Source: Bacteroidota bacterium
Lineage (GTDB): Bacteria; Bacteroidota; Bacteroidia; Chitinophagales; Chitinophagaceae
Assembly (NCBI GenBank): GCA_030706635.1
Contig: JAUZOD010000032.1
Location: 1 to 45,970, forward strand
Direction: 5' to 3'
DNA: 45,970 bases
Below are positions 4,428 through 29,586 of the stretch, piece after piece. Both the position numbers and the translations under genes were made by a program. Numbering within the stretch: position 1 is the first letter of the stretch; every line of letters begins with the position of its first letter. Below the pieces are notes generated by a model. The model did not search any database, was not told the DNA's origin, and worked only from the letters and a program-made list of their open reading frames with translations.

Positions 4428-4446
4428 TCATTATTAACAGAAGAAC

Positions 4447-5457
4447 ATGGGCATAGAAAAAGACAAATCACTGCTCCCTTACAATAGCTTTCATATTGAA
4501 GCCCGGGCAGAGCATTTTGTTTCGATTACTAACGAGGACCAGTTAAAAGAGATCCTGGAAAAAGAAGCCGGGAAAGCGATCCTGGTTTTAGGCGGCGGCA
4601 GCAATATTCTGTTCACGAAAGATGTGAAGGGATGGGTGCTGAAAATGGATATCGGAGGTATTGAGGAGATCAAGGAAGATGAACAGCACGTATATGTCCG
4701 GGCGGGTGCAGGGGAGAACTGGCATTCGTTCGTACTTTACAGCATTAGCCGCAACTGGGCAGGCCTGGAAAATCTTTCCCTGATTCCGGGAAATGTTGGT
4801 GCGGCGCCGATCCAGAATATCGGCGCTTACGGGGTGGAGCTGAAAGATGTGTTTTATGAACTTCAGGCTTATGACAGAAAAAACAGGAAGGTATATACCT
4901 TCGGGCTGAACGATTGCGCCTTTGGATACCGGGACAGTTTTTTTAAATCCGCGGAAAAGAACCGGTATATCATTTTGAATGTTACGTTTGTCCTGAATAA
5001 AGTCCCGGTTTTAAATACCAGTTACGGAGCCATACGGGCAGAGCTGGAACAGATGGAAGTTCGCACGCCATCCATACGGTCTGTTTCACAGGCAGTAATC
5101 AATATCCGGAAATCCAAACTTCCGGATCCCGCGGAGGTCGGGAATGCAGGCAGCTTTTTTAAAAACCCGGTAGTGGACCAGCAGTTATTTTTATCTCTTT
5201 CGAAAGCATTTCCCGACATGCCTGCCTATCCGCACGAAGAAGGATCGGTAAAACTCGCCGCCGGCTGGCTTATCGAACAATGCGGATGGAAAGGCTACCG
5301 GAAAGGAGATGCCGGGGTGCACCAGCTCCAGTCCCTGGTGCTGGTGAACTATGGTCATGCTACCGGAAAAGAAATTTTTGATCTGGGCGAAGCCGTTGCG
5401 GGGTCTGTTAAGAAGAAGTTTGGCGTTGTGTTGGAGCGGGAAGTGAATGTTTGGTAG
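4447..5457 (+). CDS. murB: UDP-N-acetylmuramate dehydrogenase, type I
   Basis: A 336-residue FAD enzyme that reduces UDP-GlcNAc-enolpyruvate to UDP-MurNAc with NADPH, in cytoplasmic peptidoglycan precursor synthesis. The FAD-binding motif LGGGSNILF is near residue 50 and IPGNVGAAPIQNIGAYG near 117-133. The substrate arginine lies in YRDSFF (Arg162) and the proton-donating serine in NAGSFFKNP (Ser236). The length and the Tyr/Arg loop match type I MurB, like the E. coli enzyme. It lies 19 bp behind priA and probably shares its transcript. Downstream is a long inverted repeat between convergent genes. Confidence 0.96.
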   Translation: MGIEKDKSLLPYNSFHIEARAEHFVSITNEDQLKEILEKEAGKAILVLGGGSNILFTKDVKGWVLKMDIGGIEEIKEDEQHVYVRAGAGENWHSFVLYSISRNWAGLENLSLIPGNVGAAPIQNIGAYGVELKDVFYELQAYDRKNRKVYTFGLNDCAFGYRDSFFKSAEKNRYIILNVTFVLNKVPVLNTSYGAIRAELEQMEVRTPSIRSVSQAVINIRKSKLPDPAEVGNAGSFFKNPVVDQQLFLSLSKAFPDMPAYPHEEGSVKLAAGWLIEQCGWKGYRKGDAGVHQLQSLVLVNYGHATGKEIFDLGEAVAGSVKKKFGVVLEREVNVW

Positions 5458-5465
5458 AAAGGTGG

Positions 5466-5540
5466 ATGGTATATGGTGGATGGTGGATGGATTGGAGAGT
5501 AAAGTAAAATAAAGTCCATCTACCATCGACCATATACCAT
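5466..5540. repeat. Long imperfect inverted repeat between convergent genes
   Basis: Arms at 5466-5490 and 5516-5540 pair over 25 positions with about two mismatches. The outer 12 bases (ATGGTATATGGT and ACCATATACCAT) pair perfectly. The arms are built from iterated GGTGGATGG units. The element fills the gap between murB and the AAA ATPase gene, which converge here. It could act as a bidirectional terminator but lacks clean U-tracts; a dispersed repeat is equally possible. Confidence 0.7.
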
Positions 5541-5546
5541 TCACGA

Positions 5547-7058
5547 TCAACCAAAATCTTCCTCCTCCGACGTATAGCTCTCCGGGCTCAGATTCATCAT
5601 AGACCCGATAAGATCCTTGAATTCGATTTTTCCTTCCACCACTTTTTTGCTGATCATGGAATAGGCTGACAATCCGTGTAAGACAAATTCCATCAGCAGC
5701 GACATTTCTTTTTCGTTGGCATGGCGGAAATGTTTTTTTACAAAAGCATGAAGACCGTCCACGGTATACAGCAGCTGGATCTTGTCCTGGTCCCGGGTAT
5801 TAAAGAAAATGTCCAGGTGATTGCCTTTGTCGAACCAGGCCGTAATGGGTTTATAGGGATTTTCTTCCCCTCCCTTTTTCTTTTTAAATAATTCGGGATT
5901 GGGGAAATAATTGATAAACTGGGTGCGGAATGCTTTTTCGAGTAAGTTAAAAGCCACCTGGTACGGACCTTCCTGCTCCCCTTCGTACACCAGTTCTATT
6001 TTTCCGGTGATGGATGGAATAATACCCACGAGATCGCTCATCCATACCTGGGTTTCTTTTTCGTTATTCAGCAGGGCCCTCCTTTCTGCGGCGCTGACCG
6101 CATTTTCGTAGGCGGCAATGGTGAGCCGCGCGGAGACCCCGCTTTTCTTATCAACGAATTCGCTTCCCCGGGCTTCAAATGCCACCTGTTCGATAATTCT
6201 TTTCACCAGATCGCTGATCTTCACGCGAACCTGCTGGTCACCGGTGATATCGGCTTCCTGTTCGGTTATCATCAGGGCATGATCGATATTTTTGGGATAA
6301 TGCGTAAGGATCTGACTTTCGATCCGGTCCTTTAAGGGAGTTACGATGGATCCGCGGTTGGTGTAATCCTCCGGATTCGCTGTGAAAACAAATAAAATAT
6401 CCAGCGGCATACGTAGTTTAAATCCGCGGATCTGGATATCGCCTTCTTCCAGGATATTAAAAAGAGATACCTGGATGCGGGCCTGCAGATCGGGAAGTTC
6501 GTTGATCACAAAGATGCCGCGGTTGCTTTTGGGAATGATTCCGAAATGAATTACTTCCTCATCGGCAAAATTGAGTCGCATGTTCGCCGCTTTGATGGGA
6601 TCGATATCCCCGATCAGATCCGCGACACTTACATCCGGCGTTGCCAGTTTTTCACTATACCGGTCGTTCCTGGATAACCAGGAAATAGGGGTATCGTCTT
6701 TTTTTTCTCTCAGGAGATCCCGGGCAAATTTGGAAATGGGCGCAAAGGGATCATCGTTGATTTCACTGCCGGTCACATAAGGAATGTATTCGTCCAGCAG
6801 GTTGATCATTTGCCGGGCCATGCGTGTTTTGGCTTGTCCGCGAAGACCAAGGAACAGGATATTGTGCCGGGAAAGCAATGCCCGTTCCGTATCGGGTATC
6901 ACGGAATCTTCATAACCGACGATGCCGGGGAAGCTGTTTTCTTTAAGCTGAAGTCTTTTTAAAAGATTTTCCCTGATTTCCTCTTTTACTTTTTTCCGGG
7001 TGTAACCGGATTTTTTCAATTCTCCAAACGTCTTTATCTTTTGAATGTTCATCATCAT
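5547..7058 (-). CDS. MoxR/magnesium-chelatase-I-like AAA+ ATPase
   Basis: A 503-residue AAA+ ATPase. Walker A is GLRGQAKT (71-78); the Ala before Lys is usual in MoxR proteins. The next strand reads FVINELPD, with Asn186-Glu187 where a Walker B normally has Asp-Glu. Sensor I is VFTANPEDY, followed by LKDRIES near the arginine finger. The helix-2 insertion region and C-terminal lid resemble magnesium chelatase subunit I and MoxR. It follows the VWA gene on the same strand, the standard pairing for MoxR-VWA systems that act as metal-insertion or chaperone ATPases. No BchH-like subunit is nearby, so chlorophyll synthesis is unlikely. Its client is unknown. Confidence 0.8.
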   Translation of the reverse strand: MMMNIQKIKTFGELKKSGYTRKKVKEEIRENLLKRLQLKENSFPGIVGYEDSVIPDTERALLSRHNILFLGLRGQAKTRMARQMINLLDEYIPYVTGSEINDDPFAPISKFARDLLREKKDDTPISWLSRNDRYSEKLATPDVSVADLIGDIDPIKAANMRLNFADEEVIHFGIIPKSNRGIFVINELPDLQARIQVSLFNILEEGDIQIRGFKLRMPLDILFVFTANPEDYTNRGSIVTPLKDRIESQILTHYPKNIDHALMITEQEADITGDQQVRVKISDLVKRIIEQVAFEARGSEFVDKKSGVSARLTIAAYENAVSAAERRALLNNEKETQVWMSDLVGIIPSITGKIELVYEGEQEGPYQVAFNLLEKAFRTQFINYFPNPELFKKKKGGEENPYKPITAWFDKGNHLDIFFNTRDQDKIQLLYTVDGLHAFVKKHFRHANEKEMSLLMEFVLHGLSAYSMISKKVVEGKIEFKDLIGSMMNLSPESYTSEEEDFG

Positions 7059-7121
7059 TTTTTTGATTATCCGTTATGATCCGGAAATGCGATACGGCGA
7101 ATGGCGAAAACAGGATTCAGT

Positions 7122-8219
7122 TTAATAAACTGTTTTTCTTTTCCCATTTTCAAAATCGCGGAAAATGAAAGCGCCGAGGTGATCCAGCGAAGCAAAGAAG
7201 GCTTTACCATTATTCGTTTCCGTGAATTCGTTTACAAACCGCTGAAGGTAAGGATCGCTGGCGATCATAAACGTGGTGATCGGGATCTTGATTTTTTTAC
7301 ACTGGGCGGCCAGGTTGAGACAGCGGGCCGTTATGCGCCGGTCCAGCCCGAAACTGTTCTTATAATAGCGTTTTCCCGATTTCAGGCAGGTCGGCTTCCC
7401 ATCGGTGATCATGAAGATCTGTTTGTTCGGATTTCTCCTTCTCCTTAAAATATCCATGGCCAGCTCAAGACCTGCCACGGTATTGGTATGATAGGGACCG
7501 ACCTGCAGATAGGGGAGATCTTTTATTTCGACGGGCCAGGCATCATTGCCGAAAACCACGATATCCAGGGTATCTTTCGGATATTTGGTGGTGATGAGTT
7601 CGCTTAGCGCCATGGCCACCTTTTTTGCCGGTGTGATCCGGTCTTCCCCGTAGAGGATCATGGAGTGGGAGATATCAATCATCAGCACCGTAGAGGTCTG
7701 GCTTTTAAAATCTGTCTCCCGGATCTTCAGGTCATCTTCCTGCATGTTGAAAGATTCGATGCCGTGATTGATTTGGGCGTTGCGGATGGATTCGGTGAAA
7801 TCAATCTGTTCCAGCTGGTCGCCGAACTGAAATGGCCGGGTCTCCGGATTGACTTCATCTCCCGTTCCGGGTTTGAAGCTGTTATGATCTCCCGATTTTG
7901 TCTTTTTTAATTTTCCGAAAATCTCTTCCAGGGACCGCTTGCGAATCCCCTGTTCTGTTTTGGAGCTGATTTTGAAGGCGCCAGTCTGCTTGTTTTCATC
8001 AATATATCCTTTCTCCCTGAGCTCGTCTATAAAATCACCCATCCCGTATTCGCCATCCGTAAGATCATATTCCTTGTCCAGCTGATTCATCCACTGCAAA
8101 GCCTCGCCCACATCGCCGCTGGTGTACGTAAGCAATTGCATAAAAATGTCCAGCAGCTGGTCAAATTTCGACTTACCCTCCCGCAACGGATCATACTTTG
8201 TGAAATGAAAACCAATCAT
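7122..8219 (-). CDS. VWA domain protein, partner of the MoxR-like ATPase
   Basis: A 365-residue protein with a C-terminal von Willebrand A domain. The metal-ion-dependent adhesion site is intact: Asp182-x-Ser184-x-Ser186 (DISHSM), a Thr in HTNTVAG, and the Asp of MITDGKP. The N-terminal ~170 residues are helical and charged, with no signal peptide, so it is probably cytoplasmic. It lies 63 bp upstream of the AAA+ ATPase and is probably co-transcribed. In known MoxR-VWA and BchI/BchD systems the VWA protein presents the substrate to the ATPase ring. No substrate gene is evident here. Confidence 0.8.
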   Translation of the reverse strand: MIGFHFTKYDPLREGKSKFDQLLDIFMQLLTYTSGDVGEALQWMNQLDKEYDLTDGEYGMGDFIDELREKGYIDENKQTGAFKISSKTEQGIRKRSLEEIFGKLKKTKSGDHNSFKPGTGDEVNPETRPFQFGDQLEQIDFTESIRNAQINHGIESFNMQEDDLKIRETDFKSQTSTVLMIDISHSMILYGEDRITPAKKVAMALSELITTKYPKDTLDIVVFGNDAWPVEIKDLPYLQVGPYHTNTVAGLELAMDILRRRRNPNKQIFMITDGKPTCLKSGKRYYKNSFGLDRRITARCLNLAAQCKKIKIPITTFMIASDPYLQRFVNEFTETNNGKAFFASLDHLGAFIFRDFENGKRKTVY

Positions 8220-8300
8220 ATTATCAAGTTACTGCATTAAAATTAAACAAATAGTTTATGCCGGAATTTCCTGCTTAAGTACTAATTTCCCTTAAACCCC

Positions 8301-8308
8301 TAGCTTTA
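8301..8308 (+). promoter_or_regulatory. Possible -7 element (TAGCTTTA) for the DUF5009-like gene
   Basis: TAGCTTTA is one base from TAnnTTTG and ends 4 nt before the ATG at 8313, the same close spacing as at 687-694. There is no clear -33 element. Confidence 0.3.
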
Positions 8309-8312
8309 TCAT

Positions 8313-9482
8313 ATGTATAACAAACTATCCGGAAAAAGGATCATTTCCATTGATGCATTTCGTGGAATCACCATTCTGATGATGGTTTTCGTGAACGAAC
8401 TGGCCGGAATACGGGATATTCCATTCTGGATGAAGCACATGCCGGCGCATGCGGACGCCATGAGTTTCGTGGATGTGGTATTCCCGGCTTTCCTTTTTAT
8501 CGCGGGCATGTCCATTCCGTTTGCTCTCTGCAAACGCTTCACGGTCAATCGCAACAAGGGTAAATTGCAAAAGCATATTTTATGGCGCGTTGCGGGTCTC
8601 CTTTGTTTTGGTTTCTTTATGGTGAACGGAGAAAGTTCCGGGCCGCACGATATGGTTTTGTCGATTTATGCCTGGTCCCTGCTTTTTTATTTTTTTGCCA
8701 TCATGGTATGGCAGGTGTACCGCGTCACGAGTAAGAATCTGGTTCTGGCGATGCGTGGTATCGGACTGGCGGGTTTGCTTTTCCTGGCATTGATTTACCG
8801 CGGAGGGATGGATGGCACTCATTTTATCACGCCGAGATGGTGGGGTATCCTCGGATTGATTGGATGGGCTTATCTGTTCAGTTGTCTTTTTTACCAGTTG
8901 TCTTCCGGAAAGCCCCTCCCGCTGATGCTGTTCGTTATTTTATGCACTATTCTGTTTGCGCTGACGAAATATTATAACTGGAACGATTTCCCCGCCAAAA
9001 ATGCAACGCATATTTCCGTTATGCTCTGCGGGGTGATCGTGAGTATCCTGCTTTTTGATGAAGGAAATGCAAGAGGGGTGCAGCGGCGGATCGGTGAGGT
9101 TGCGGGATTGGCCCTCATCTTATTTATTGCGGGTTATTTCCTGCGGCCCCTGTACGCGATCTCGAAGATATACGCTACGCCTACCTGGGGATTTTACTGC
9201 GCTGCGATCTGCTGCCTGCTTTACCTGCTTTTTTATTGGGTGATCGATATGAAAGGACACCAGCGATGGACCCGTTTTTTTCAGCCTGCGGCAGAAAATC
9301 CGTTGCTGACCTATCTGATTCCGGACATTATTTTCGCGCTGATCATGCTGCTCCATATCCGGCTCTTTCCGGCTAAATGGTCCTATGGTATTCCGGGCAT
9401 GTTATGGTCAGCCGCCTTCGCCATAATTGTTATGTTTATAGCGAAGGGGCTGAACAAGCTGCACGTCCGGCTGCAGCTTTAA
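8313..9482 (+). CDS. DUF5009/HGSNAT-like membrane acyltransferase
   Basis: A 389-residue polytopic membrane protein with about ten hydrophobic segments. The N-terminus (RIISIDAFRGITILMM, then DVVFPAFLFIAGMSIPFA) is the hallmark of the DUF5009/DUF1624 group, related to heparan-alpha-glucosaminide N-acetyltransferase. These proteins are thought to transfer acetyl groups across the membrane to sugars, but the acceptor here is unknown. Its stop codon directly abuts the stop of the convergent DUF2723 gene, leaving no room for a terminator. The start is ATG 8313, shortly after a promoter-like element. Confidence 0.8.
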   Translation: MYNKLSGKRIISIDAFRGITILMMVFVNELAGIRDIPFWMKHMPAHADAMSFVDVVFPAFLFIAGMSIPFALCKRFTVNRNKGKLQKHILWRVAGLLCFGFFMVNGESSGPHDMVLSIYAWSLLFYFFAIMVWQVYRVTSKNLVLAMRGIGLAGLLFLALIYRGGMDGTHFITPRWWGILGLIGWAYLFSCLFYQLSSGKPLPLMLFVILCTILFALTKYYNWNDFPAKNATHISVMLCGVIVSILLFDEGNARGVQRRIGEVAGLALILFIAGYFLRPLYAISKIYATPTWGFYCAAICCLLYLLFYWVIDMKGHQRWTRFFQPAAENPLLTYLIPDIIFALIMLLHIRLFPAKWSYGIPGMLWSAAFAIIVMFIAKGLNKLHVRLQL

Positions 9483-22151: not shown

Positions 22152-22517
22152 TTATGGCTTTTGCACAATCAGCTTTCCGACCATGACAACATGGATACTA
22201 CAATAATAGTCGTCGCTCTCTGCCACCACCATTTTCCAGGATTTGCCGGGGGCCAGGCTGGAAGAAGTCCAGGTACTGTTCGGAACCTGGGTCACATCAT
22301 GCACAACCATGTCCTTATTAATCCATTCAACTGTATCCCCCTGGTGAACGGTGATTGTGGCTGGCTGGAATTTCATTTGAGAGATTTCAACCCGGAGTGT
22401 TTTAGGCACATATTTCTCCGGGGTGATTTTTTCGGGGGATGTGGAACAACTGCTCAGGATAAACAGGGGAAATGCCAGGATCAGGCTATTTCCCCAAAAT
22501 TTACGGATGGGTATCAT
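22152..22517 (-). CDS. Cupredoxin (plastocyanin-like) lipoprotein
   Basis: A 121-residue blue-copper protein anchored as a lipoprotein (FILSSC, Cys24). The type I copper ligands are all visible: His73 in VVHDV, then Cys106, His109 and Met112 in YYCSIHVVM. KFQPATITVHQGDTVEWIN is the usual first half of the fold. It probably carries electrons in the periplasm. Its ATG overlaps the TGA of the DUF4142 gene (ATGA, 22514-22517), so the two are translationally coupled. An ECF sigma gene is divergent on the far side of DUF4142. Confidence 0.88.
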   Translation of the reverse strand: MIPIRKFWGNSLILAFPLFILSSCSTSPEKITPEKYVPKTLRVEISQMKFQPATITVHQGDTVEWINKDMVVHDVTQVPNSTWTSSSLAPGKSWKMVVAESDDYYCSIHVVMVGKLIVQKP

Positions 22518-23059
22518 TTGGTAAACTTGCTTTGTAGCATTTCAGCATGTTCCAAATGGGCTTTTAAGGTAGGTACAACCGCTTGCAGCAGACTTTTTAA
22601 TTCTGCATTCCGGGTTTGCGGAATGAGTACGGTTTCCACCGCAGAAATAACGGCTTTGTGATATACGACTTCATTATCAATATAGGCCTTGTTAAATGCG
22701 GCACCTGATTTTGAATTCAGCATCTTCTCTGTTTTTTTAGCATCCGCTGTCATTTTTTTGCTGACTGCATTGTCTTTTGGTGTCACCTTAAGTTTGGTAA
22801 CCAGGGCAACAGCCTGGTCAATAACGGATTGGTGATCACTGGCCATGGTTTTGGCGAACTGAAGAATGTCTGCATTTTTTGACTTTTTCTCTGCGATCCT
22901 GGCAAAGCCAATATCATTCTTATTGGCCACTACGGCCACGGATGCGATTTCATCATCCCCGAGTTTGGCTGTTTGCTGGGCGAAACCTGGCAGTGTCTGC
23001 GTGAGGATCAGGGCCATAGAAGCTGCAGCCCATGTTGTTAAAGTTTTAAGCATTTTCAT
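22514..23059 (-). CDS. DUF4142 exported protein (ferritin-like fold)
   Basis: A 181-residue protein with a signal peptide (ending PGFAQQ) and a four-helix DUF4142 domain. Typical blocks are KLGDDEIASVAVVANKNDIG, FAKTMASDHQSVIDQ, and a C-terminal helix ending HLEHAEML. Conserved His and Glu in these helices suggest a ferritin-like bundle, but metal binding is not proven for the family. It is the first gene of a coupled pair with the cupredoxin. It diverges from the ECF sigma gene, with a perfect 9-bp palindrome in between, so regulation by that sigma factor or a linked regulator is plausible. Confidence 0.85.
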   Translation of the reverse strand: MKMLKTLTTWAAASMALILTQTLPGFAQQTAKLGDDEIASVAVVANKNDIGFARIAEKKSKNADILQFAKTMASDHQSVIDQAVALVTKLKVTPKDNAVSKKMTADAKKTEKMLNSKSGAAFNKAYIDNEVVYHKAVISAVETVLIPQTRNAELKSLLQAVVPTLKAHLEHAEMLQSKFTK

Positions 23060-23110
23060 TTTGCTGATTTTATTTGTTTGAATACCTATTGGAGTTCAGC
23101 CGGCCGGAAA

Positions 23111-23142
23111 GGTTACAAAAAAAAGAGGCTAACTTTGTAACC
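23111..23142. promoter_or_regulatory. Palindromic operator candidate overlapping a TAACTTTG promoter element
   Basis: GGTTACAAA (23111-23119) and TTTGTAACC (23134-23142) form a perfect 9-bp inverted repeat with a 14-nt spacer. A perfect plus-strand TAnnTTTG (TAACTTTG, 23130-23137) overlaps the right arm. The site lies between the divergent DUF4142 and sigma-factor genes, which is where a shared operator would be expected. Confidence 0.6.
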
Positions 23143-23163
23143 TTGCCGTATCAGGATACTCTA

Positions 23164-23862
23164 ATGCACAGTAGTATGGATAATTCGCATCTGCCGCCGG
23201 GCTCCGAAACGGAAGTTATTTCTGATCAGGAAGTCATTTCCCGTGTGTTAAAGGGGGAAAAGAATTTGTATGCTATTATCGTCCGCAGGTACAATGCCCG
23301 CCTGTACCGGGTGGGAATGTCTATAGTCGATGACGATGCGGAAGTGGAGGATGTAATGCAGGTAGCATACATCAAAGCCTATGAAAATCTGGCCCGTTTT
23401 GCCTTCCGATCCAGTTTTTCAACCTGGCTAACCCGGATTCTCATCAATGAAAGCCTGCTCCGGCTGAAAAAAAGAAAATTGTCCGTCCACCTGAATGAAG
23501 CCCTCATGATAAATAATAGTTACCCCTCAAATAATCCGGTAGATGGTCAGACGCCGGCTTCTAAAACCCTGAATATGGAATTAAGGACCATTTTGGAAGA
23601 AGCGATCCGCAAATTGCCGGAAATATACCGGACGGTTTTCATCATGCGAGAAATCGAAAATATGAATGTGGTGGAAACGAAGGAATGCCTGGATATTTCC
23701 GAAGCCAATGTAAAAGTGCGTTTAAACCGGGCAAAATCATTATTAAGAGATTCCCTGAGCGCTTATTATAAAAAAGAAGATATTCTTCATTTTCATCTTT
23801 CCCGCTGCGACAGGATGGTGGAGCGGGTGAACCGGCAGATTGAATCCATTTCCATTTACTGA
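23164..23862 (+). CDS. ECF-type RNA polymerase sigma factor
   Basis: A 232-residue sigma-70 family protein of the ECF class. Region 2 reads LYRVGMSIVDDDAEVEDVMQVAYIKAYENL; this is followed by FSTWLTRILINESLLRLKK, and region 4 has LPEIYRTVFIMREIENMNVVETKECLDISEANVKVRLNRAKS. The frame is open from 23074, but its first 30 codons span the palindrome and promoter and look non-coding, so ATG 23164 (or 23176) is preferred. No anti-sigma gene is adjacent. It is divergent to DUF4142/cupredoxin, and its 3' end overlaps the convergent ferredoxin gene by 7 bp. Confidence 0.9.
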   Translation: MHSSMDNSHLPPGSETEVISDQEVISRVLKGEKNLYAIIVRRYNARLYRVGMSIVDDDAEVEDVMQVAYIKAYENLARFAFRSSFSTWLTRILINESLLRLKKRKLSVHLNEALMINNSYPSNNPVDGQTPASKTLNMELRTILEEAIRKLPEIYRTVFIMREIENMNVVETKECLDISEANVKVRLNRAKSLLRDSLSAYYKKEDILHFHLSRCDRMVERVNRQIESISIY

Positions 23863-24209
23863 TATTCCCTTAATATTTTTATTTTAATGTCCTTCAGCGA
23901 AGAATTGATCAGCAGCTGACAGGCCAGCCTGATGTCCTTACGCGGTGCCGTCATTTTTTTGATTGTTGATTCCTCATTTCTTTCCATGGGATCCAGGGTC
24001 TGACCAGAAGACAGAATCTCGACCAGACAGCTACCGCACCTGCCCATGCCCTTACACTCGCCGAATTCCTCCGTATAGAGACTGTCGAAGATCAGCATCA
24101 TCAGATTCCTGTACTCTCCTTCGTAAGTATCCAGTTCATACGCGTCGCCCTCGTAGACAACCGTAATATGAATGGGGTCTTGTTGCGGAAGGGTAGACGG
24201 ACTAATCAT
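23856..24209 (-). CDS. [2Fe-2S] ferredoxin
   Basis: A 117-residue plant/adrenodoxin-like ferredoxin. The cluster ligands are Cys52, Cys58, Cys61 and Cys97 (C-x5-C-x2-C-x35-C, in FGECKGMGRCGSC and RLACQLL). No signal peptide, so it is cytoplasmic. It is the last gene of the oxidase/haemoglobin operon and starts 4 bp after the hemerythrin stop. It could supply electrons to the truncated haemoglobin or hemerythrin next door; that is inference from position. Confidence 0.88.
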   Translation of the reverse strand: MISPSTLPQQDPIHITVVYEGDAYELDTYEGEYRNLMMLIFDSLYTEEFGECKGMGRCGSCLVEILSSGQTLDPMERNEESTIKKMTAPRKDIRLACQLLINSSLKDIKIKILREYQ

Positions 24210-24213
24210 TTTT

Positions 24214-24711
24214 TTACAGCGAAGATTTCAGGTTCCAGAATGCATCAGCATAATCGTCTTTTACTTCGTGGCTGGCAGATGCATTTAGTTTTTTTCCGAT
24301 CAGCGCTAACTGATCGGCCTTCAGTATCTTTTCCAGGTGGGGAAACAACTCCCGTTCTTCAAAACGGATATGCTTATCCAGTTCATCCGCCAGCTGGCGA
24401 AGCTGGTCGGTTGACTGAGAATCCTGAACGGCAAAGGATTCAACCAATTGCTGAATGGCCTTGTGTTGCTGTTTTGCTTTCATCACCAGGGGGTCATCCG
24501 CCGGAGCAAACAGGATTTCCTCTTCCTCCATGAAATGCGGCAGAATATGATTGTTCCAGAAATAATGAACATAGGGAACCATACGCTCAAAACCTGTGTT
24601 GTTTTTAATGCCCTGACGGATTTTCCAGCCGAAAAGCAGGGTGAAATGATGTTCCCTGGATAATTTTAGCAGGCTTTCGGTGCGTTTGATGGGCTTTATA
24701 CCGGTGTTCAT
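24214..24711 (-). CDS. Hemerythrin HHE domain protein
   Basis: A 165-residue four-helix protein with hemerythrin-type di-iron ligands: His21/His22 in SREHHF, His55, His59 and the following Glu in HILPHFMEEE, a His in QQHKAI, and HIRFEERELFPHLE. It is a single-domain soluble protein. Related proteins bind O2, sense it, or repair and protect iron centres under NO stress. It lies 30 bp behind the truncated haemoglobin gene in a co-directional operon with an Rrf2-type regulator, which supports a role in O2 or NO handling. Confidence 0.85.
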   Translation of the reverse strand: MNTGIKPIKRTESLLKLSREHHFTLLFGWKIRQGIKNNTGFERMVPYVHYFWNNHILPHFMEEEEILFAPADDPLVMKAKQQHKAIQQLVESFAVQDSQSTDQLRQLADELDKHIRFEERELFPHLEKILKADQLALIGKKLNASASHEVKDDYADAFWNLKSSL

Positions 24712-24741
24712 GGTGTTGGTTATGCAGTACTGTTCCCTGCA

Positions 24742-25137
24742 TCAAATTATATTTTTAAATCCCTGTTCTTTAAAATAGGCTATCCTCGATTCAAACATCT
24801 CTGCCATCTTATCGGCCCTCCACGCGGCCTCCTTTGCTTTTTCTCCGCTGAATAGTTCATTCAGGGTTTCCTTAAATAACCTGAGCCATTGCTGAAAATG
24901 GCCATGGTCAATAGGCAGGCTGGCATGGGGAGCAAACGGGCTTCCGAGATAGCTGTGTTCGTTCAGTAGTACGGTTTGCCAGAACCGGTACATCTTTTCC
25001 AGGTGTACGGGCCATTGATCCCTGATTCTTTCATTGAAAATGGGAGCCAGTAACTGATCAGATCTTACTTTTCCGTAAAAAGTATCCACCAGTTTCTTAA
25101 TATCATCCAGATTCAGGATATCTCTGCTTTCACTCAT
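24742..25137 (-). CDS. Group III truncated haemoglobin
   Basis: A 131-residue 2/2 haemoglobin. VDTFYGKVRSD carries the B10 tyrosine (Tyr21), FWQTVLLN the E-helix region, and LPIDHGHFQQWLRLF the proximal His80 and the group III Trp84. The start at 25137 is chosen over an open frame from 25215 because that extension overlaps the upstream gene and lies outside the globin fold. Group III globins in Campylobacter are linked to NO and O2 metabolism. Here it sits inside an oxidase operon, 5 bp after the preceding gene. Confidence 0.88.
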   Translation of the reverse strand: MSESRDILNLDDIKKLVDTFYGKVRSDQLLAPIFNERIRDQWPVHLEKMYRFWQTVLLNEHSYLGSPFAPHASLPIDHGHFQQWLRLFKETLNELFSGEKAKEAAWRADKMAEMFESRIAYFKEQGFKNII

Positions 25138-25142
25138 TCGGA

Positions 25143-25550
25143 TTAAGATTTTATGTTCAGATACATGATGGAATAGTACAGGGCCCATCCGGCAAATCCG
25201 ATAATCAGGATCCATACCCAGGACGGAATGGTTTGTGGCGTCTCGCTGCCCACAATGAGGAATTTCTTTTGATCTCCTTTGCCGTAGGCATTTATCATGA
25301 GCGGCAATATGCCATCCACCCGGGCATGTTCTTTAATTCCTTCAACGGAAATGGCAGGACCGTTACTCACTTGAAAAGGAATCACGCGCAATCCTTCTTT
25401 GCCGGTCGGATCTTTGCTTACAATCCGGAGCGTATGATCGCCATCCACCAGTTTACGGGTGTCCAGTTCAAAGTTAGCCGGAGAAGCAAAGGTAGCGATG
25501 GGTTTGGGATCGCCGTCCAGAAAAATAAATATGGTGCTTTTGTCATCCAT
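25143..25550 (-). CDS. Unknown protein: Ig-like domain with C-terminal membrane anchor
   Basis: A 135-residue protein I cannot assign. The first ~100 residues are beta-rich and look Ig/cadherin-like (FASPANFELDTRKLVDGDHTLRIV, split by a Gly/Asp turn). Residues ~110-130 (WVWILIIGFAGWALYYSIMYL) form one membrane helix. There is no N-terminal signal, so it is probably a tail-anchored or C-terminally inserted protein. It starts 1 bp after the stop of the CPAC gene and ends 5 bp before the haemoglobin gene, so it belongs to the oxidase operon. It is not CcoH, which has an N-terminal anchor. A role as oxidase accessory or assembly protein is a guess. Confidence 0.7.
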   Translation of the reverse strand: MDDKSTIFIFLDGDPKPIATFASPANFELDTRKLVDGDHTLRIVSKDPTGKEGLRVIPFQVSNGPAISVEGIKEHARVDGILPLMINAYGKGDQKKFLIVGSETPQTIPSWVWILIIGFAGWALYYSIMYLNIKS

Positions 25551-25551
25551 C

Positions 25552-25812
25552 TCATTCGGGATTTAAAATAAGGCGTTTGATATGTTGTTGTGCTTTTTCT
25601 CCGGGGCGAATCAACCATTTTACGGAGTAAAAAAGAGTAAAGAGTACGATCACGATAAATACGCAGACGATCAGATAGTCCCATTTTCCCGAGGGTCCCG
25701 CACCGTGGGTGATCCCACGCAATATTTTGGGCTGTTGCGATTCGCAGGCAGGGCAGGCCAGTATTCGCAACCGGGCGAAGGTCATCATCAGCAGGGCAAT
25801 TGTTTTTTTCAT
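25552..25812 (-). CDS. Small CPAC membrane protein, oxidase-associated, unknown function
   Basis: An 86-residue protein. An N-terminal hydrophobic stretch leads to Cys20-Pro-Ala-Cys23, then QQPKILRGITHGAGPSGKWDY, a single transmembrane helix (LIVCVFIVIVLFTLFYSV) and a basic tail. The CxxC pair could be redox-active or bind metal, copper delivery to CuB being one possibility. No family function is known to me. It lies 5 bp after the cytochrome gene and 1 bp before the Ig-like gene, so translation is probably coupled. Confidence 0.72.
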   Translation of the reverse strand: MKKTIALLMMTFARLRILACPACESQQPKILRGITHGAGPSGKWDYLIVCVFIVIVLFTLFYSVKWLIRPGEKAQQHIKRLILNPE

Positions 25813-25817
25813 CTTTT

Positions 25818-26831
25818 TTATTTAGGCGCTGTTGTTATTTTCAGGAAGTCGGCGACTTTTTTAACTTCTTCCACGGTCACGGGCTTGCCATTATTCCCCC
25901 AGCTTGATTTTTCATGATTCATGATGGCGGTTATTTCTTCAGGACTAAGATTATTAAGCGTTCCTATTGCCGGCATGGGTCCGTATCCTTCTTGTATTCG
26001 GCCTGTGTACCCGTTTAAAATTATATTGATCATTTGTTCCGGATTTTCATTCAATACCACCGGACTTCCTTTCAGGGGAGGGAATGCTCCTTTCAGGCCT
26101 TCACCATTGGCCTGATGGCAACTCTGACAATTTGCTGTATAAAGCGCCACACCATCCGCAGCGGCCGGTTTTGACGCATCGCCGGTCGTTTTAATTTCCT
26201 TTTTGTACAGGAATTCCGGCGCCGGGTTTCCATCAGGCAGTCTGGTTTGTTTTAATGATTGAAGATAAGCCACGAGGTACAGGGCATCCGGTGTTGCCAC
26301 GACTTTCCCTTGCAGCCCGTTAAGATATTCCTTTGGCACGTTCACCAGCACATCTCCCTTATCTGCGCTGTCTTTTATTTCGAACAACCAGGAATAGGCC
26401 GGCATAACAGATTGCCCAACCACAATTCTCGGGTTAAACAAATGCACCAGATTCCATTCCTTGCCGGGCTGTCTTTTTCCGATATTGGTAAGATCCGGTC
26501 CCGTGCGTTCCGAGCCCATCAGGGTGGCGGTATTGCGCCAGAAATCTGTCCGGTGGTTGCCGGCATAATCTGCAGCAATGCTGGGACGGTCCCCCCATAC
26601 TTTATCCATATCTACATTACGCACCTGCTGGGTATGACAGGCAACGCATCCGTTGGCAATAAAAATGGCTTTGCCTTTTGCAGCCGCTTCGCTCAGTGGT
26701 TCTGCATTAGGCAGCGGCGCAAAATTCCGCTGGTTGTTTAATGCCGGTATGATGGCAACCAGGACCGTTAATCCTGCAAAGAACAGGAAGGCGGTTCTGA
26801 ACAATGTTTGATGGTTATCAAATAATTCCAT
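25818..26831 (-). CDS. CcoO-like cytochrome c fused to a second cytochrome c domain
   Basis: A 337-residue dihaem protein with an N-terminal membrane anchor (residues ~12-30). The first haem motif is Cys62-x2-Cys65-His66 (GCVACHTQQVRN), followed by GSERTGPDLTNIG and VMPAYSWLF, which are CcoO (FixO) blocks with the axial Met. The second half carries Cys235-x2-Cys238-His239 (NCQSCHQANGEG) and GPMPAIG, a CcoP-like class I cytochrome. So one polypeptide provides the roles of CcoO and part of CcoP of a cbb3 oxidase. It lies 11 bp behind the catalytic subunit gene. No separate CcoP or CcoQ gene is in the operon. Confidence 0.85.
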   Translation of the reverse strand: MELFDNHQTLFRTAFLFFAGLTVLVAIIPALNNQRNFAPLPNAEPLSEAAAKGKAIFIANGCVACHTQQVRNVDMDKVWGDRPSIAADYAGNHRTDFWRNTATLMGSERTGPDLTNIGKRQPGKEWNLVHLFNPRIVVGQSVMPAYSWLFEIKDSADKGDVLVNVPKEYLNGLQGKVVATPDALYLVAYLQSLKQTRLPDGNPAPEFLYKKEIKTTGDASKPAAADGVALYTANCQSCHQANGEGLKGAFPPLKGSPVVLNENPEQMINIILNGYTGRIQEGYGPMPAIGTLNNLSPEEITAIMNHEKSSWGNNGKPVTVEEVKKVADFLKITTAPK

Positions 26832-26842
26832 GAAATGATCAA

Positions 26843-28900
26843 TTATAGGTTGGCAGGTGCCTGGGGTTTTAATTTTTCCAATGCGATGTCCTTAACGTCC
26901 GGAATGTTTGATTCCGCGAGCATCTTATACATGTTATAAGCAAAAAATAAATGGGAGAACCACATCAGGCTTCCTCCGATCGCGCGCCAGAGCCAGTAGG
27001 GCGCCATAAAAGCCACCCCGTCAATAAAAGGCTTTCCTTCAACCCACATCATGCCTTTCAATGTGCTTCCGTACATCAGGGGAACGGTGTAAAACAGCAG
27101 GCCGATCAGGGCAAGCCAGAAATGCGCACCGACGGTTATTTGCGGTGGTTCTTTGCCGGTTAACCTCGGAATGACCGCATAAATGCCGGCCCATAGAAAA
27201 AAGCAGATAATGCCGTACATGGTCATATGGGAATGCGCAACCGTGAAATCTGTAAAATGCCAGAACAGATTGGTCGAACGGAAAGCTTCCGCAGTTCCCT
27301 GCATGGACCCGGTGAAATAAAATATAATGCCGACCAGGAAAAAAGGAAGGGTATAGCTCCCCGGTAGCTTATACCAGGCTCCTTTGAAAGTCATCAGAAA
27401 ATTGGTTGTGCCGGCGGCAACCGGTATGATCATGCCCATACTGCCGACAATGGCAATCGTCTGCAGCCACCAGGGAATGGGACTGAAAACAAAATGATGC
27501 GACCCGATCAGTGTGTAGAAAAGGATCTGCGTCCAAAAGGCGAGGATGCCGAGACTGTAAGAATAAATCGGTTTGTTCAGCTGCTGCGGCAGGAAATAAT
27601 AAACAATACCCAGCGTAAAAAGCATAAACCACATACCCACACCCTGATGCATATAATAACCCTGAGCGATTGTTTCACCCAGGCCATCCTGCCAAAAGGG
27701 CAAATAGGCTACGATCATAATGACCAGCGCAAAGATTACCGCAGATACCATATACCAGTTGGAGATGTATATTTCCCTGGTTGTCCGTTTGGCTATCGTT
27801 TTTAGAAAATTGTTCAGGGTGATAATCAATCCGATGCCAAATAAAGCCATGACCGGCCAGATGTATTCGCGGTATTCGCCACCGCCGTTGTTGATGCCGG
27901 CCATCAAAAGCAATGAGCCCAGAACAACCGACAGATTGATCAGGATCAGCGTCCACCATCCTTTTTTGATGCTGTACAGTGCGGTATTGCTCACCATGGG
28001 TACGATATAATAACCCAGGCCCAGCATCGCCAGGGAAGCCCATCCCCAGAATACGGCATTGGTATGAACCGGACGCAGTCGCCCGAAACTCAGCCAACTG
28101 ATATGATCTGCATCGGGTGCAACGAATTTAATGCCCAGGTATTCACCGATGCTGGTGCCGAACAGCAGCCAGAAAGTAGCCGTGCCGATATACCAAAGGA
28201 TCAGCCGGGTGAGCGCTGGGTCAATATTCGGTCGTTTTAAAGCTTTTTTCTTGATGGCGACGACCGGCAGGCCGGTATTGCTTTTAATATTGATAAGGCC
28301 TTTTTCATCTTCTGCGGTTTCATGGCCGGCCAGTTCGGAATGGGTCAGTCGGAAATCCAGTGCCTGTTTGCGTTTGATCAGGGTTGTTGATAAAGCTTCT
28401 TCCGGTAAGGAAGACATGTACCGGGCAAGTTTTTCGGCCTCTTCAAGACTTCGCCTGATTCGGTTTTGTTTCAACAGGTTCATCACTTTGATGATCATGA
28501 GCACGATGCCCAGGAGAATGGGGATGAGCACAAGGGTTATGACGATCAGGAATCCCGTCTCGCTGAAAATAGTGGCCGGTGAAGCCGTGGATTGTGCGAA
28601 TAAGGAGACCGGAGAAAATAAGGCCGGAAATACCCGTAGCATACTGATTTTTGAAGCTGCATTGGCAGCAGATTCTTTACCAGGATATTTATTTTTAAAA
28701 TAGGTTTCAATCTGTTTGCTGTCCAGGTTGCCGATATATTGCCGGAATCGTTCGGATTCATTGGTGATATTTAATTTTTTGTTTGCCTTTATCACTTCGC
28801 TGGTTTTGACCTTTAACAGGACTACCGCGATCAGCAATAAAAGCAGAAGAAGGGACAGGCAGAAGATCAATCCATTTTCCGTATGCAGAGCAGCTTTCAT
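26843..28900 (-). CDS. cbb3-type oxidase catalytic subunit (CcoN-like) with N-terminal extension
   Basis: A 685-residue haem-copper oxidase subunit I of the cbb3 (C) family, the proton-pumping O2 reductase core. The haem histidine is in RPVHTNAVFWGW (His279). CuB ligands fit His418 (YMHQGVGMWF) and His468-His469 (IGSHHF), and His553/His555 lie in VAHSHMTMYG. Tyr462, six residues before His468, matches the cross-linked active-site tyrosine of cbb3 enzymes and argues against NO reductase. The first ~225 residues are extra: two membrane helices with charged loops (SLPEEALSTTLIKRKQ) that I cannot assign, perhaps FixP_N-related. It is second in the operon, 44 bp after the Rrf2 gene. Confidence 0.88.
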   Translation of the reverse strand: MKAALHTENGLIFCLSLLLLLLLIAVVLLKVKTSEVIKANKKLNITNESERFRQYIGNLDSKQIETYFKNKYPGKESAANAASKISMLRVFPALFSPVSLFAQSTASPATIFSETGFLIVITLVLIPILLGIVLMIIKVMNLLKQNRIRRSLEEAEKLARYMSSLPEEALSTTLIKRKQALDFRLTHSELAGHETAEDEKGLINIKSNTGLPVVAIKKKALKRPNIDPALTRLILWYIGTATFWLLFGTSIGEYLGIKFVAPDADHISWLSFGRLRPVHTNAVFWGWASLAMLGLGYYIVPMVSNTALYSIKKGWWTLILINLSVVLGSLLLMAGINNGGGEYREYIWPVMALFGIGLIITLNNFLKTIAKRTTREIYISNWYMVSAVIFALVIMIVAYLPFWQDGLGETIAQGYYMHQGVGMWFMLFTLGIVYYFLPQQLNKPIYSYSLGILAFWTQILFYTLIGSHHFVFSPIPWWLQTIAIVGSMGMIIPVAAGTTNFLMTFKGAWYKLPGSYTLPFFLVGIIFYFTGSMQGTAEAFRSTNLFWHFTDFTVAHSHMTMYGIICFFLWAGIYAVIPRLTGKEPPQITVGAHFWLALIGLLFYTVPLMYGSTLKGMMWVEGKPFIDGVAFMAPYWLWRAIGGSLMWFSHLFFAYNMYKMLAESNIPDVKDIALEKLKPQAPANL

Positions 28901-28944
28901 AAAATATATTAATACCTTTTTATCCTCTATTGTTCTAAAAAAAA

Positions 28945-29379
28945 TTACCGTTGTTTCAGGAAGGTCAGATTCTTTTCAAATTGCTCGTAAAACGCACCCA
29001 GTTTGGCTTCCTGTAATATATCGGACAATTCCTTACGTACTTTTTTGAATTCATGATGGATAGGGCATGGCTTGGCCTCGGAGCAGAAATCCAGCCCCAA
29101 AGCGCAACCTGAGAAAATTTTGTCTCCATCTACCGCTTTCACAATATCCGCCAGCGAATATTTCATAGACTGTTTGTCCATATAAAAACCTCCGGATGGT
29201 CCTTTTGAGGATTGAACGAGTCCGCGGCGGCTCAGGTTCTGCAGGATCTTGGCGATGAAGTACTCCGGGGAATCAATGCCTTTGGCAATCTCCTTAATTC
29301 CGGTTTTGCAGCCATCCTTTGATTTCTGGGCAATATAAATCATCGCCCGGATCGCATATTCGCAGGTTTTTGAAAACAT
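28945..29379 (-). CDS. Rrf2 family Fe-S transcriptional regulator
   Basis: A 144-residue winged-helix regulator of the Rrf2 family (IscR/NsrR type). The N-terminus FSKTCEYAIRAMIYIAQ and SPEYFIAKILQNLSRRGLVQSSKGPSGGF form the DNA-binding domain. Cys92, Cys99 and Cys105 (C-x6-C-x5-C) fit a [2Fe-2S] or [4Fe-4S] cluster as in NsrR and IscR. It is the first gene of the oxidase-haemoglobin-hemerythrin run. A TATTTTTG element and a dyad lie just upstream, consistent with autoregulation. NO, O2 or iron could be the signal; NO or O2 fits the neighbours best. Confidence 0.9.
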   Translation of the reverse strand: MFSKTCEYAIRAMIYIAQKSKDGCKTGIKEIAKGIDSPEYFIAKILQNLSRRGLVQSSKGPSGGFYMDKQSMKYSLADIVKAVDGDKIFSGCALGLDFCSEAKPCPIHHEFKKVRKELSDILQEAKLGAFYEQFEKNLTFLKQR

Positions 29380-29398: not shown

Positions 29399-29437
29399 CA
29401 AAAATAATCAAAAGCTTTAATAAAAGACTTTTTTATC
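29399..29437 (-). promoter_or_regulatory. Promoter (TATTTTTG) with adjacent dyad, likely Rrf2 operator
   Basis: The minus strand reads TATTTTTG at 29406-29399 (TAnnTTTG), 19 nt before the Rrf2 ATG. At 29419-29437 is a dyad AATAAAAGACTTTTTTATC, placed where the -33 region would be. A related half-site, GGATAAAAAGGTATTA on the minus strand, lies at 28910-28925, just upstream of the oxidase gene. The shared GATAAAAA-G core suggests binding by one regulator, probably Rrf2. Confidence 0.5.
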
Positions 29438-29586
29438 TTCTTTCCTTTATCGGGGCCGGGGCAAAAGTCATTTGAAGTGACCATTTATTTTATTGAATCC
29501 GGAGTTGGGGGAAGGAAAATATTTTATGAGGCTTGTCTTTTTAAACAAAAGGCAGCCTAAATTGTAAATGCATAAAATACAACATC

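Follow-up and report, generated by a model that had tools for sequence, protein, structure and literature searches.

The described systems closest to the genes considered here are the cbb3 oxidases, represented by the enzyme of Pseudomonas stutzeri (3mk7), and the NsrR regulon of proteobacteria and firmicutes. Ordinary cbb3 oxidases are strongly and quickly inhibited by nitric oxide (NO), according to an excerpt of PMC9266656, and in excerpts of PMC8780969 cbb3 enzymes reduce NO slowly and have NO reductase activity in vitro. The part of PMC5492636 that quotes Muntyan 2015 gives a mandatory active-centre glutamate as the mark of an authentic cbb3, and shows an 'unknown group' in its tree. For the NsrR regulon, the targets given in an extract of PMC1274295 include hmp, ytfE/dnrN, haem-copper membrane proteins, an AOX oxidase, and a globin with ferredoxin reductase. 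We describe here a predicted operon in a stretch of 45,970 nucleotides from a bacterium of the Chitinophagaceae (Bacteroidota; contig JAUZOD010000032.1; the whole stretch is called the window), in which an Rrf2-family regulator gene is followed by a ccoN-like gene, a FixO-type cytochrome c gene, two genes for small membrane proteins that we call CPAC and Ig (immunoglobulin-like), and genes for a truncated haemoglobin of group III, for a hemerythrin and for a probable [2Fe-2S] ferredoxin. Our reading, to which we give a probability of about one half, is that this operon is the genome's own copy of an NsrR-like stress unit of the Bacteroidota, in which a modified cbb3-like reductase sustains respiration under NO. 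Among the open-licence literature, by title and start of abstract, we found no paper describing such a unit.

CcoN*, a divergent relative of cbb3 subunit I

What kind of enzyme does the ccoN-like gene encode? With residues numbered by 3mk7, all 81 sequences of this protein type, here called CcoN*, keep the six histidine ligands (H60, H207, H257, H258, H345 and H347) and the cross-link tyrosine Y251, a pattern that fits O2 reduction, and E122, E125, Y223, N289 and Y317 are likewise kept in 81/81. Two other positions are changed throughout. Ser240, which we take to be part of a proton path, is Gly in 81/81 and is Ser in the 14 canonical, three betaproteobacterial and one Sinorhizobium sequences. 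Glu323, presumably within the proximal-histidine surroundings of haem b3 and here taken to be the mandatory active-centre glutamate of authentic cbb3, is Gln in 81/81 and in the four betaproteobacterial and Sinorhizobium rows, and Glu in 14/14 canonical sequences. Eleven additional CcoN*, taken from other families and classes, show the same residues in 11/11 cases, which brings the sequences with both changes to 92.

CcoN* resembles the cbb3 of 3mk7 in its six histidine ligands, Tyr251, Glu122/Glu125 and a FixO-type cytochrome c subunit, and differs from it in Gly240, Gln323, a long N-terminal extension, two extra small proteins and membership of a separate clade. In a tree of 37 sequences, CcoN* forms a clade with 100/100 support, apart from both canonical Bacteroidota CcoN and cytochrome c-type NO reductases (cNOR). 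The window protein scores 232 bits against the ccoN equivalog model, below the cut-off of 583. A search of the genome to which the window belongs (the own genome, below) finds no CcoP above cut-off, the best TIGR00782 match having 36.5 bits versus 179.95, and no other C-family subunit I. Judged by its six histidines, its tyrosine and its FixO-type partner gene, CcoN* fits a C-family haem-copper reductase; judged by the replacement of Glu323 and Ser240 and by the own genome's lack of a CcoP over the cut-off, it is not an ordinary cbb3. An earlier, sequence-only reading of this DNA had spoken of a cbb3-like oxidase. That description stands insofar as COX1/ccoN and FixO-type genes are present, and falls if an ordinary cbb3 is meant.

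NO reductases are defined by Glu211 near FeB together with loss of the cross-link tyrosine. The three cNOR sequences compared all have Glu211, and Ile at the tyrosine position, and the Glu211 position is Gly in 81/81 CcoN*. We therefore reject membership of CcoN* among the cNOR or the quinol-type enzymes (qNOR), as Glu211 is missing, the tyrosine is kept and the tree position is separate.

Nearer to CcoN* in the tree, with 93/93 support that carries long-branch warnings, are betaproteobacterial CcoN-like enzymes that lack CcoP, from Azoarcus, Paraburkholderia and, by sequence, Cupriavidus, with 36.1, 35.8 and 33.6% identity to CcoN*. These enzymes and a Sinorhizobium pSymA pair share Gln323 and Glu327 with CcoN* in 4/4 cases, but keep Ser240. 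Among the annotated Azoarcus and Paraburkholderia neighbours are cytochrome c, SCO or P-type ATPase genes, with no Rrf2, globin or hemerythrin; the Cupriavidus record is unannotated. A different likeness is offered by a plasmid of Sulfitobacter sp. W027 (NZ_CP083565; locus L156, 1-8629), where Rrf2, hemerythrin, cbb3 and DUF488 genes lie side by side. The oxidase there differs, being an ordinary ccoNOQP whose CcoN has Ser240 and Glu323 and whose CcoP is present, and the cluster looks like a parallel arrangement in the Alphaproteobacteria.

A conserved core with changing cargo

Is the eight-gene set itself a conserved unit? Loci were counted among the best 80 of 423 relatives, obtained by a scan of named genomes with alignment of seven orthologues; their titles name Bacteroidota taxa, and families were counted on the CcoN strand of each locus. 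CcoO is found, as the next gene, in 79 of the 80 loci, CPAC in 79, Ig in 78 and Rrf2 in 62. The remaining families are less constant: truncated haemoglobin in 50, ferredoxin in 31, the Fe-S repair protein RIC in 31, hemerythrin in 27, DUF1858/DUF2249 in 10, and a membrane protein that we call MEMB in nine. All eight window families occur together in 17/80 loci, and the exact order of the window in three (L037, L087 and L102); the globin gene directly follows Ig in 48/80. Because the exact order is so rare and the content varies among loci, the conserved unit is the five-gene core Rrf2-CcoN-CcoO-CPAC-Ig with changing cargo, of which the window shows one version. The eight-gene composition, which the sequence-only reading had treated as the unit, gives way to this core, while the neighbourhood conservation that it had asked for in related genomes is found within the order and beyond the class.

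Of 248 genomes belonging to the order, 15 encode CcoN* (above 800 bits), and it is precisely these 15, and no others, that encode Ig. (One CcoN* match, at G277:C1:1198007-1200052, has a TAG reported within the matched span.) A scan of 392 genomes across the phylum gave Ig matches in 17, leaving 15 after those in G408 and G654, unrelated Ig-like proteins of 735 and 738 amino acids, were dropped; a second weak match in G639 (27 bits) was excluded from the count. Eight of these 15 genomes were opened, with G520, G608, G616 and G652 among those left out. CcoN*, CcoO, a CPAC-like gene and Ig stand together in seven of the eight loci, four of which are beyond the class. There CcoN* has 471-478 amino acids, without the N-terminal extension, and Rrf2 was not recognised at these four loci; RIC and MEMB are nearby in L179 and L180, and not in L178 or L181.

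One might suppose that any oxidase locus of these bacteria would gather such neighbours. As a control, 14 canonical cbb3 loci were picked from the relatives, with about 9 kb on each side, and compared with the 59 CcoN* loci that span 18 kb or more. The canonical loci have no Rrf2, truncated haemoglobin, ferredoxin or hemerythrin and one RIC, versus 43, 37, 27, 23 and 25, respectively, at the CcoN* loci. Four other families, DUF1858, MEMB, MauG and flavohaemoglobin, occur too seldom to be separated by this control (p 0.13 to 0.42).

Taken by family, the cargo appears to be a nitric-oxide set of group III globin, RIC/YtfE, hemerythrin, ferredoxin and sometimes flavohaemoglobin. The RIC proteins match the Fe-S repair family, that of L032 passing the equivalog cut-off (239.9 versus 204.7) and that of L033 failing it (139.2). 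In L076 a flavohaemoglobin, assigned by Pfam domains, sits between Rrf2 and CcoN, and L049 and L088 hold two further proteins of the same cluster. Proteins of the MauG and DUF488 types are found repeatedly as well. The link to NO chemistry that the sequence-only reading had proposed is strengthened by RIC, flavohaemoglobin and globin as neighbours, and by the shared operator considered below.

MEMB (L033:5887-7152) is a membrane protein of 421 amino acids with weak similarity to COX1/CcoN and homologues in L032, L034, L153, L179 and L180. The L033 protein has no Pfam match, and that of L031 has one COX1 match of 31.1 bits, under the cut-off. It is always found near RIC or DUF1858, and might perhaps be a haem protein of NO defence.

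Regulator, operator and the case for nitric oxide

The Rrf2 genes of these loci share an operator-like sequence. Of 62 sequences upstream of Rrf2, one from the window and 61 from other loci, 54 contain the palindrome AATAAAAGA-N8-TCTTTTATT with at most three mismatches, 21 of them perfect, versus a dinucleotide-shuffle mean of 0.1. It lies mostly 36-40 bp before the Rrf2 start. An element TAnnTTTG, presumably the Bacteroidota promoter element, begins 12-14 bp after the palindrome in 39 of the 57 regions with a site; this spacing argues for a repressor position. The operon is known from 19 other genomes; 11 of these were searched at no more than one mismatch, and yielded 11 sites in six genomes, against three for a reversed-pattern control. 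Nine of the 11 sites precede Rrf2-CcoN* (four), CcoN* (one), RIC-DUF1858 (three) or truncated haemoglobin (one) genes; of the other two, one falls between an Rrf2-haemoglobin set and a DUF488-ferredoxin-MauG set and one inside a gene. The own genome has five two-mismatch sites. One of these, AATAAAAGTATTTATATACTTTTATT, is 17 bp before the RIC gene of a RIC-DUF1858-MEMB-FeS_assembly_P-Rrf2 operon, and another is 52 bp before a MauG gene. By motif and operon, the candidate regulon comprises RIC, truncated haemoglobin, an Hmp-containing operon and MauG.

The likeness to the NsrR regulon lies in an Rrf2 repressor with Fe-S-type cysteines and in similar kinds of targets, as far as the extract of PMC1274295 describes them. 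As flavohaemoglobin and RIC correspond to NsrR targets named there, we count their presence in these loci in favour of an NsrR-like unit; the AOX oxidase and the globin with ferredoxin reductase of such regulons count likewise. The operators differ, the same extract giving gATGyAT-N5-ATrCATc for NsrR, versus the N8-spaced palindrome here. The Bacteroidota unit is also unlike the NsrR regulon in its x6-x5 cysteine spacing, in a regulator score below the NsrR model cut-off and in its cbb3-like terminal enzyme. C-x6-C-x5-C is found in 61 of 62 aligned regulators, the exception being a fragment, and Glu7 in 59 of 62, at a position that we take to be that of the NsrR ligand Asp8.

The unit might work as follows. 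Rrf2, holding an Fe-S cluster, would act at the palindrome that overlies the promoter and there repress the operon to which it belongs, and NO, or another attack on the cluster, would relieve this repression. Together with CPAC and Ig, the small membrane proteins dedicated to them, CcoN* and CcoO* would form a cytochrome-c-fed C-family haem-copper reductase that keeps reducing O2 while NO blocks the normal oxidases, and that may reduce some NO. The soluble cargo, that is, globin, hemerythrin and ferredoxin here and RIC, flavohaemoglobin and MauG in relatives, would bind or oxidise NO and mend Fe-S or di-iron damage. The genes present, their conserved core, the operator motif, the regulon members that it marks in relatives and the residue changes are observed in the sequences. 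The cluster, NO as its signal, the assembly of a complex and the activity of every protein are what we infer; a response to NO or to Fe-S damage is the simplest account of a shared operator together with such cargo.

Several observations weigh against this reading. Five of the 11 searched relatives have no operator at one mismatch or fewer, and the own genome at up to three mismatches has 13 sites versus 16 for the reversed control, no excess. Against the curated NsrR model NF008240 the regulator scores 44.7 bits, with a cut-off of 182, and by that model is not NsrR. Twenty of the 80 loci have no truncated haemoglobin, RIC, hemerythrin, DUF1858 or MEMB on the CcoN strand, several being short contigs; the Chitinophaga loci L111, L112 and L115 are long, yet without Rrf2 and without NO cargo. 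G563 (L186, G563:C6:150000-165000, 4225-8579) retains Rrf2, CPAC, Ig, truncated haemoglobin, RIC, hemerythrin and ferredoxin, with only a CcoN fragment (22 bits) at the locus, where ccoN-ccoO is missing; elsewhere it has an ordinary CcoN and no CcoN*. It seems to have lost the oxidase and kept the cargo, so the cargo can exist without the oxidase. One might go further and propose that nothing but drift placed these genes in one operon and that the cargo is functionally unconnected to the oxidase, as the cargo's variation by locus, the window order in 3/80 and the cargo without CcoN* in G563 would allow. The canonical-locus control and the occurrence of the same operator before separate loci make this highly improbable.

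The three Chitinophaga loci have the arrangement CcoN*-CcoO-CPAC-Ig, with an AraC-type regulator and small membrane proteins upstream instead.

A second alternative replaces NO by oxygen or iron. C-family enzymes usually serve at low O2, and several Rrf2 proteins sense Fe-S status. The operon might thus be a microaerobic or iron-status unit, in which Rrf2 senses cluster supply and a plain low-O2 oxidase works beside an O2-storing globin and hemerythrin. Rrf2 signals are also treated in the abstract of PMC5015018. Besides these general properties, the own genome's RIC-DUF1858-MEMB operon, with its second Rrf2, adjoins sufB/sufC-type genes, which counts in favour of this alternative. RIC, flavohaemoglobin and the 0/14 control, however, favour NO over plain low O2, and an ordinary cbb3 is also present in 12 of the 15 CcoN* genomes, so that we hold this alternative to be distinctly unlikely.

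The own-genome RIC operon (L153; G000:C88:23000-31500, 2032-8289) ends with its second Rrf2 gene and is followed by SufB-type and ABC (SufC-like) genes.

Would CcoN* and CcoO* rather be mainly an NO reductase, derived from cbb3 and turning NO into N2O, either to detoxify NO or to complete a partial denitrification? The NO-type neighbours and the operator would suit such a role, as would the in vitro activity of cbb3 (in the excerpts of PMC8780969), and the two replaced residues indicate that the chemistry or the proton path has changed. Of the CcoN* genomes, 5/15 have NirK above cut-off versus 27/233 others (p 0.03), and 8/15 versus 30/233 (p 0.0004) with sub-cut-off matches included; all p values given here are loose because related genomes are not independent. 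One genome, G255, has NirK and CcoN* and no cNOR/qNOR match at 1e-20. The absence of Glu211 and the retained tyrosine, in 81/81, point the other way. Furthermore, of 32 NirK-positive genomes 15 have no cNOR/qNOR match, and, compared by hand, only G255 among these has CcoN*; cNOR/qNOR is present anyway in 4/15 CcoN* genomes (29/233 others, p 0.12), and the own genome's NirK-like protein is below cut-off (185 versus 296 bits). We regard a main role as NO reductase as somewhat unlikely, and such a role in denitrification as less likely than O2 reduction. The kept cross-link tyrosine leads us to prefer an enzyme that reduces O2 and is modified to operate under NO, and that may reduce NO as a second activity.

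We reject the idea that CcoN* is the NO reductase generally missing from denitrifiers, since just one of the 15 NirK-positive genomes without a cNOR/qNOR match has it. Genomes with nir and nosZ and no nor make up 9% of Bacteroidota in the portion of PMC12569097 that treats them, and they are not explained by CcoN* here. The NirK-like protein of the own genome (L125:341-1360, G000:C92) is a multicopper protein that was set aside as a weak sign of NO production, as it is below the cut-off and Pfam gives multicopper-oxidase domains only. A homologue in G079 shares a strand run with RIC, DUF1858, MEMB and Rrf2 (L131).

A bolder proposal, which we put forward tentatively and hold possible rather than probable, is that CcoN*, CcoO*, CPAC and Ig make up a C-family reductase of a novel type, distinguished by Gly240/Gln323 and by two subunits not described before, and that this enzyme has evolved for work with NO, either reducing NO or reducing O2 in its presence. 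An NO-stress regulon so far unrecognised, extending through the Bacteroidota and, with no recognised Rrf2, into neighbouring classes of the phylum, would then have this enzyme at its core. Ordinary cbb3 oxidases are reported to be poisoned by NO; a C-family enzyme kept with NO-detoxification genes, with two residues changed in all 92 sequences and two dedicated small proteins, lends itself to asking how tolerance to NO, or its reduction, arises in this superfamily. The loci also supply a candidate NsrR-like regulon and operator for the Bacteroidota, and 'cbb3' matches in soil and sediment genomes need a different reading.

Operon layout and individual genes

The eight open reading frames (ORFs), all on the minus strand, run from 29379 down to 23856 with successive gaps of 44, 11, 5, 1, 5, 30 and 4 bp, and such gaps suggest co-transcription as one operon. 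The strand, the order and the 1-44 bp spacing given in the sequence-only reading are confirmed, and so are its Rrf2, CcoN-like, CcoO-like, globin and hemerythrin families.

Features of the operon and its upstream region, in window positions
Feature	Positions	Strand	Basis or remark
Operator-like palindrome GAAAGAAGATAAAAAAGTCTTTTATT	29419..29444	-	39 bp before Rrf2 start; 3 mismatches to consensus
TAnnTTTG element TATTTTTG, candidate -7 box	29399..29406	-	read by eye
Rrf2-family regulator, 144 aa	28945..29379	-	Pfam Rrf2 97 bits; Cys92-x6-Cys99-x5-Cys105
CcoN*, divergent C-family haem-copper subunit I, 685 aa, long N-terminal extension	26843..28900	-	COX1 275.6 bits
CcoO*, FixO-type with second cytochrome c domain	25818..26831	-	FixO 95.2 bits; Cytochrom_C 66.4 bits
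CPAC, 86 aa	25552..25812	-	signal-like start, CPxC, ITHGxGP..WDY, one hydrophobic stretch (topology by eye)
Ig, Ig-like protein with C-terminal helix, 135 aa	25143..25550	-	structure model
Group III truncated haemoglobin, 131 aa	24742..25137	-	Bac_globin 30.2 bits; 2ig3 E 2.9e-19
Hemerythrin HHE protein, 165 aa	24214..24711	-	Pfam Hemerythrin 40.4 bits
Probable [2Fe-2S] ferredoxin, 117 aa	23856..24209	-	C52-C58-C61-C97; putidaredoxin matches

CcoO* has two CxxCH motifs, at residues 62 and 235. For CPAC and Ig, neither Pfam nor NCBIfam gives a family match at E 0.01. The model of Ig is a beta sandwich with one C-terminal helix (mean predicted local distance difference test, pLDDT, 74.3; predicted template-modelling score, pTM, 0.44), and comparison of its fold gave generic Ig, FnIII, cadherin, CopC and SoxYZ matches only, the best at E 0.022.

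The globin ORF as called mechanically begins at 25215, within the Ig gene; judged by eye, a better start is offered by the ATG at 25137. Its match 2ig3 is a solved group III truncated haemoglobin, presumably that of Campylobacter jejuni, and the genomic setting differs. In the hemerythrin, H22, H59, E63, H83, H114 and E118 are kept in at least 90% of 26 sequences. The ferredoxin scores 20.7 bits for Fer2, slightly below the Pfam cut-off of 21; it has the pattern C-x5-C-x2-C-x35-C, and its four cysteines are among the residues kept in at least 90% of 15 aligned sequences.

At its 5' end the operon is flanked by a divergent OsmC gene, and at its 3' end it meets, with a 7 bp overlap, a convergent ORF for an extracytoplasmic function (ECF) sigma factor. 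In the window, positions 22152-23862 hold this sigma factor gene and then DUF4142-like and cupredoxin genes, and the same three families are also found upstream of Rrf2 in Ginsengibacter hankyongi (L038).

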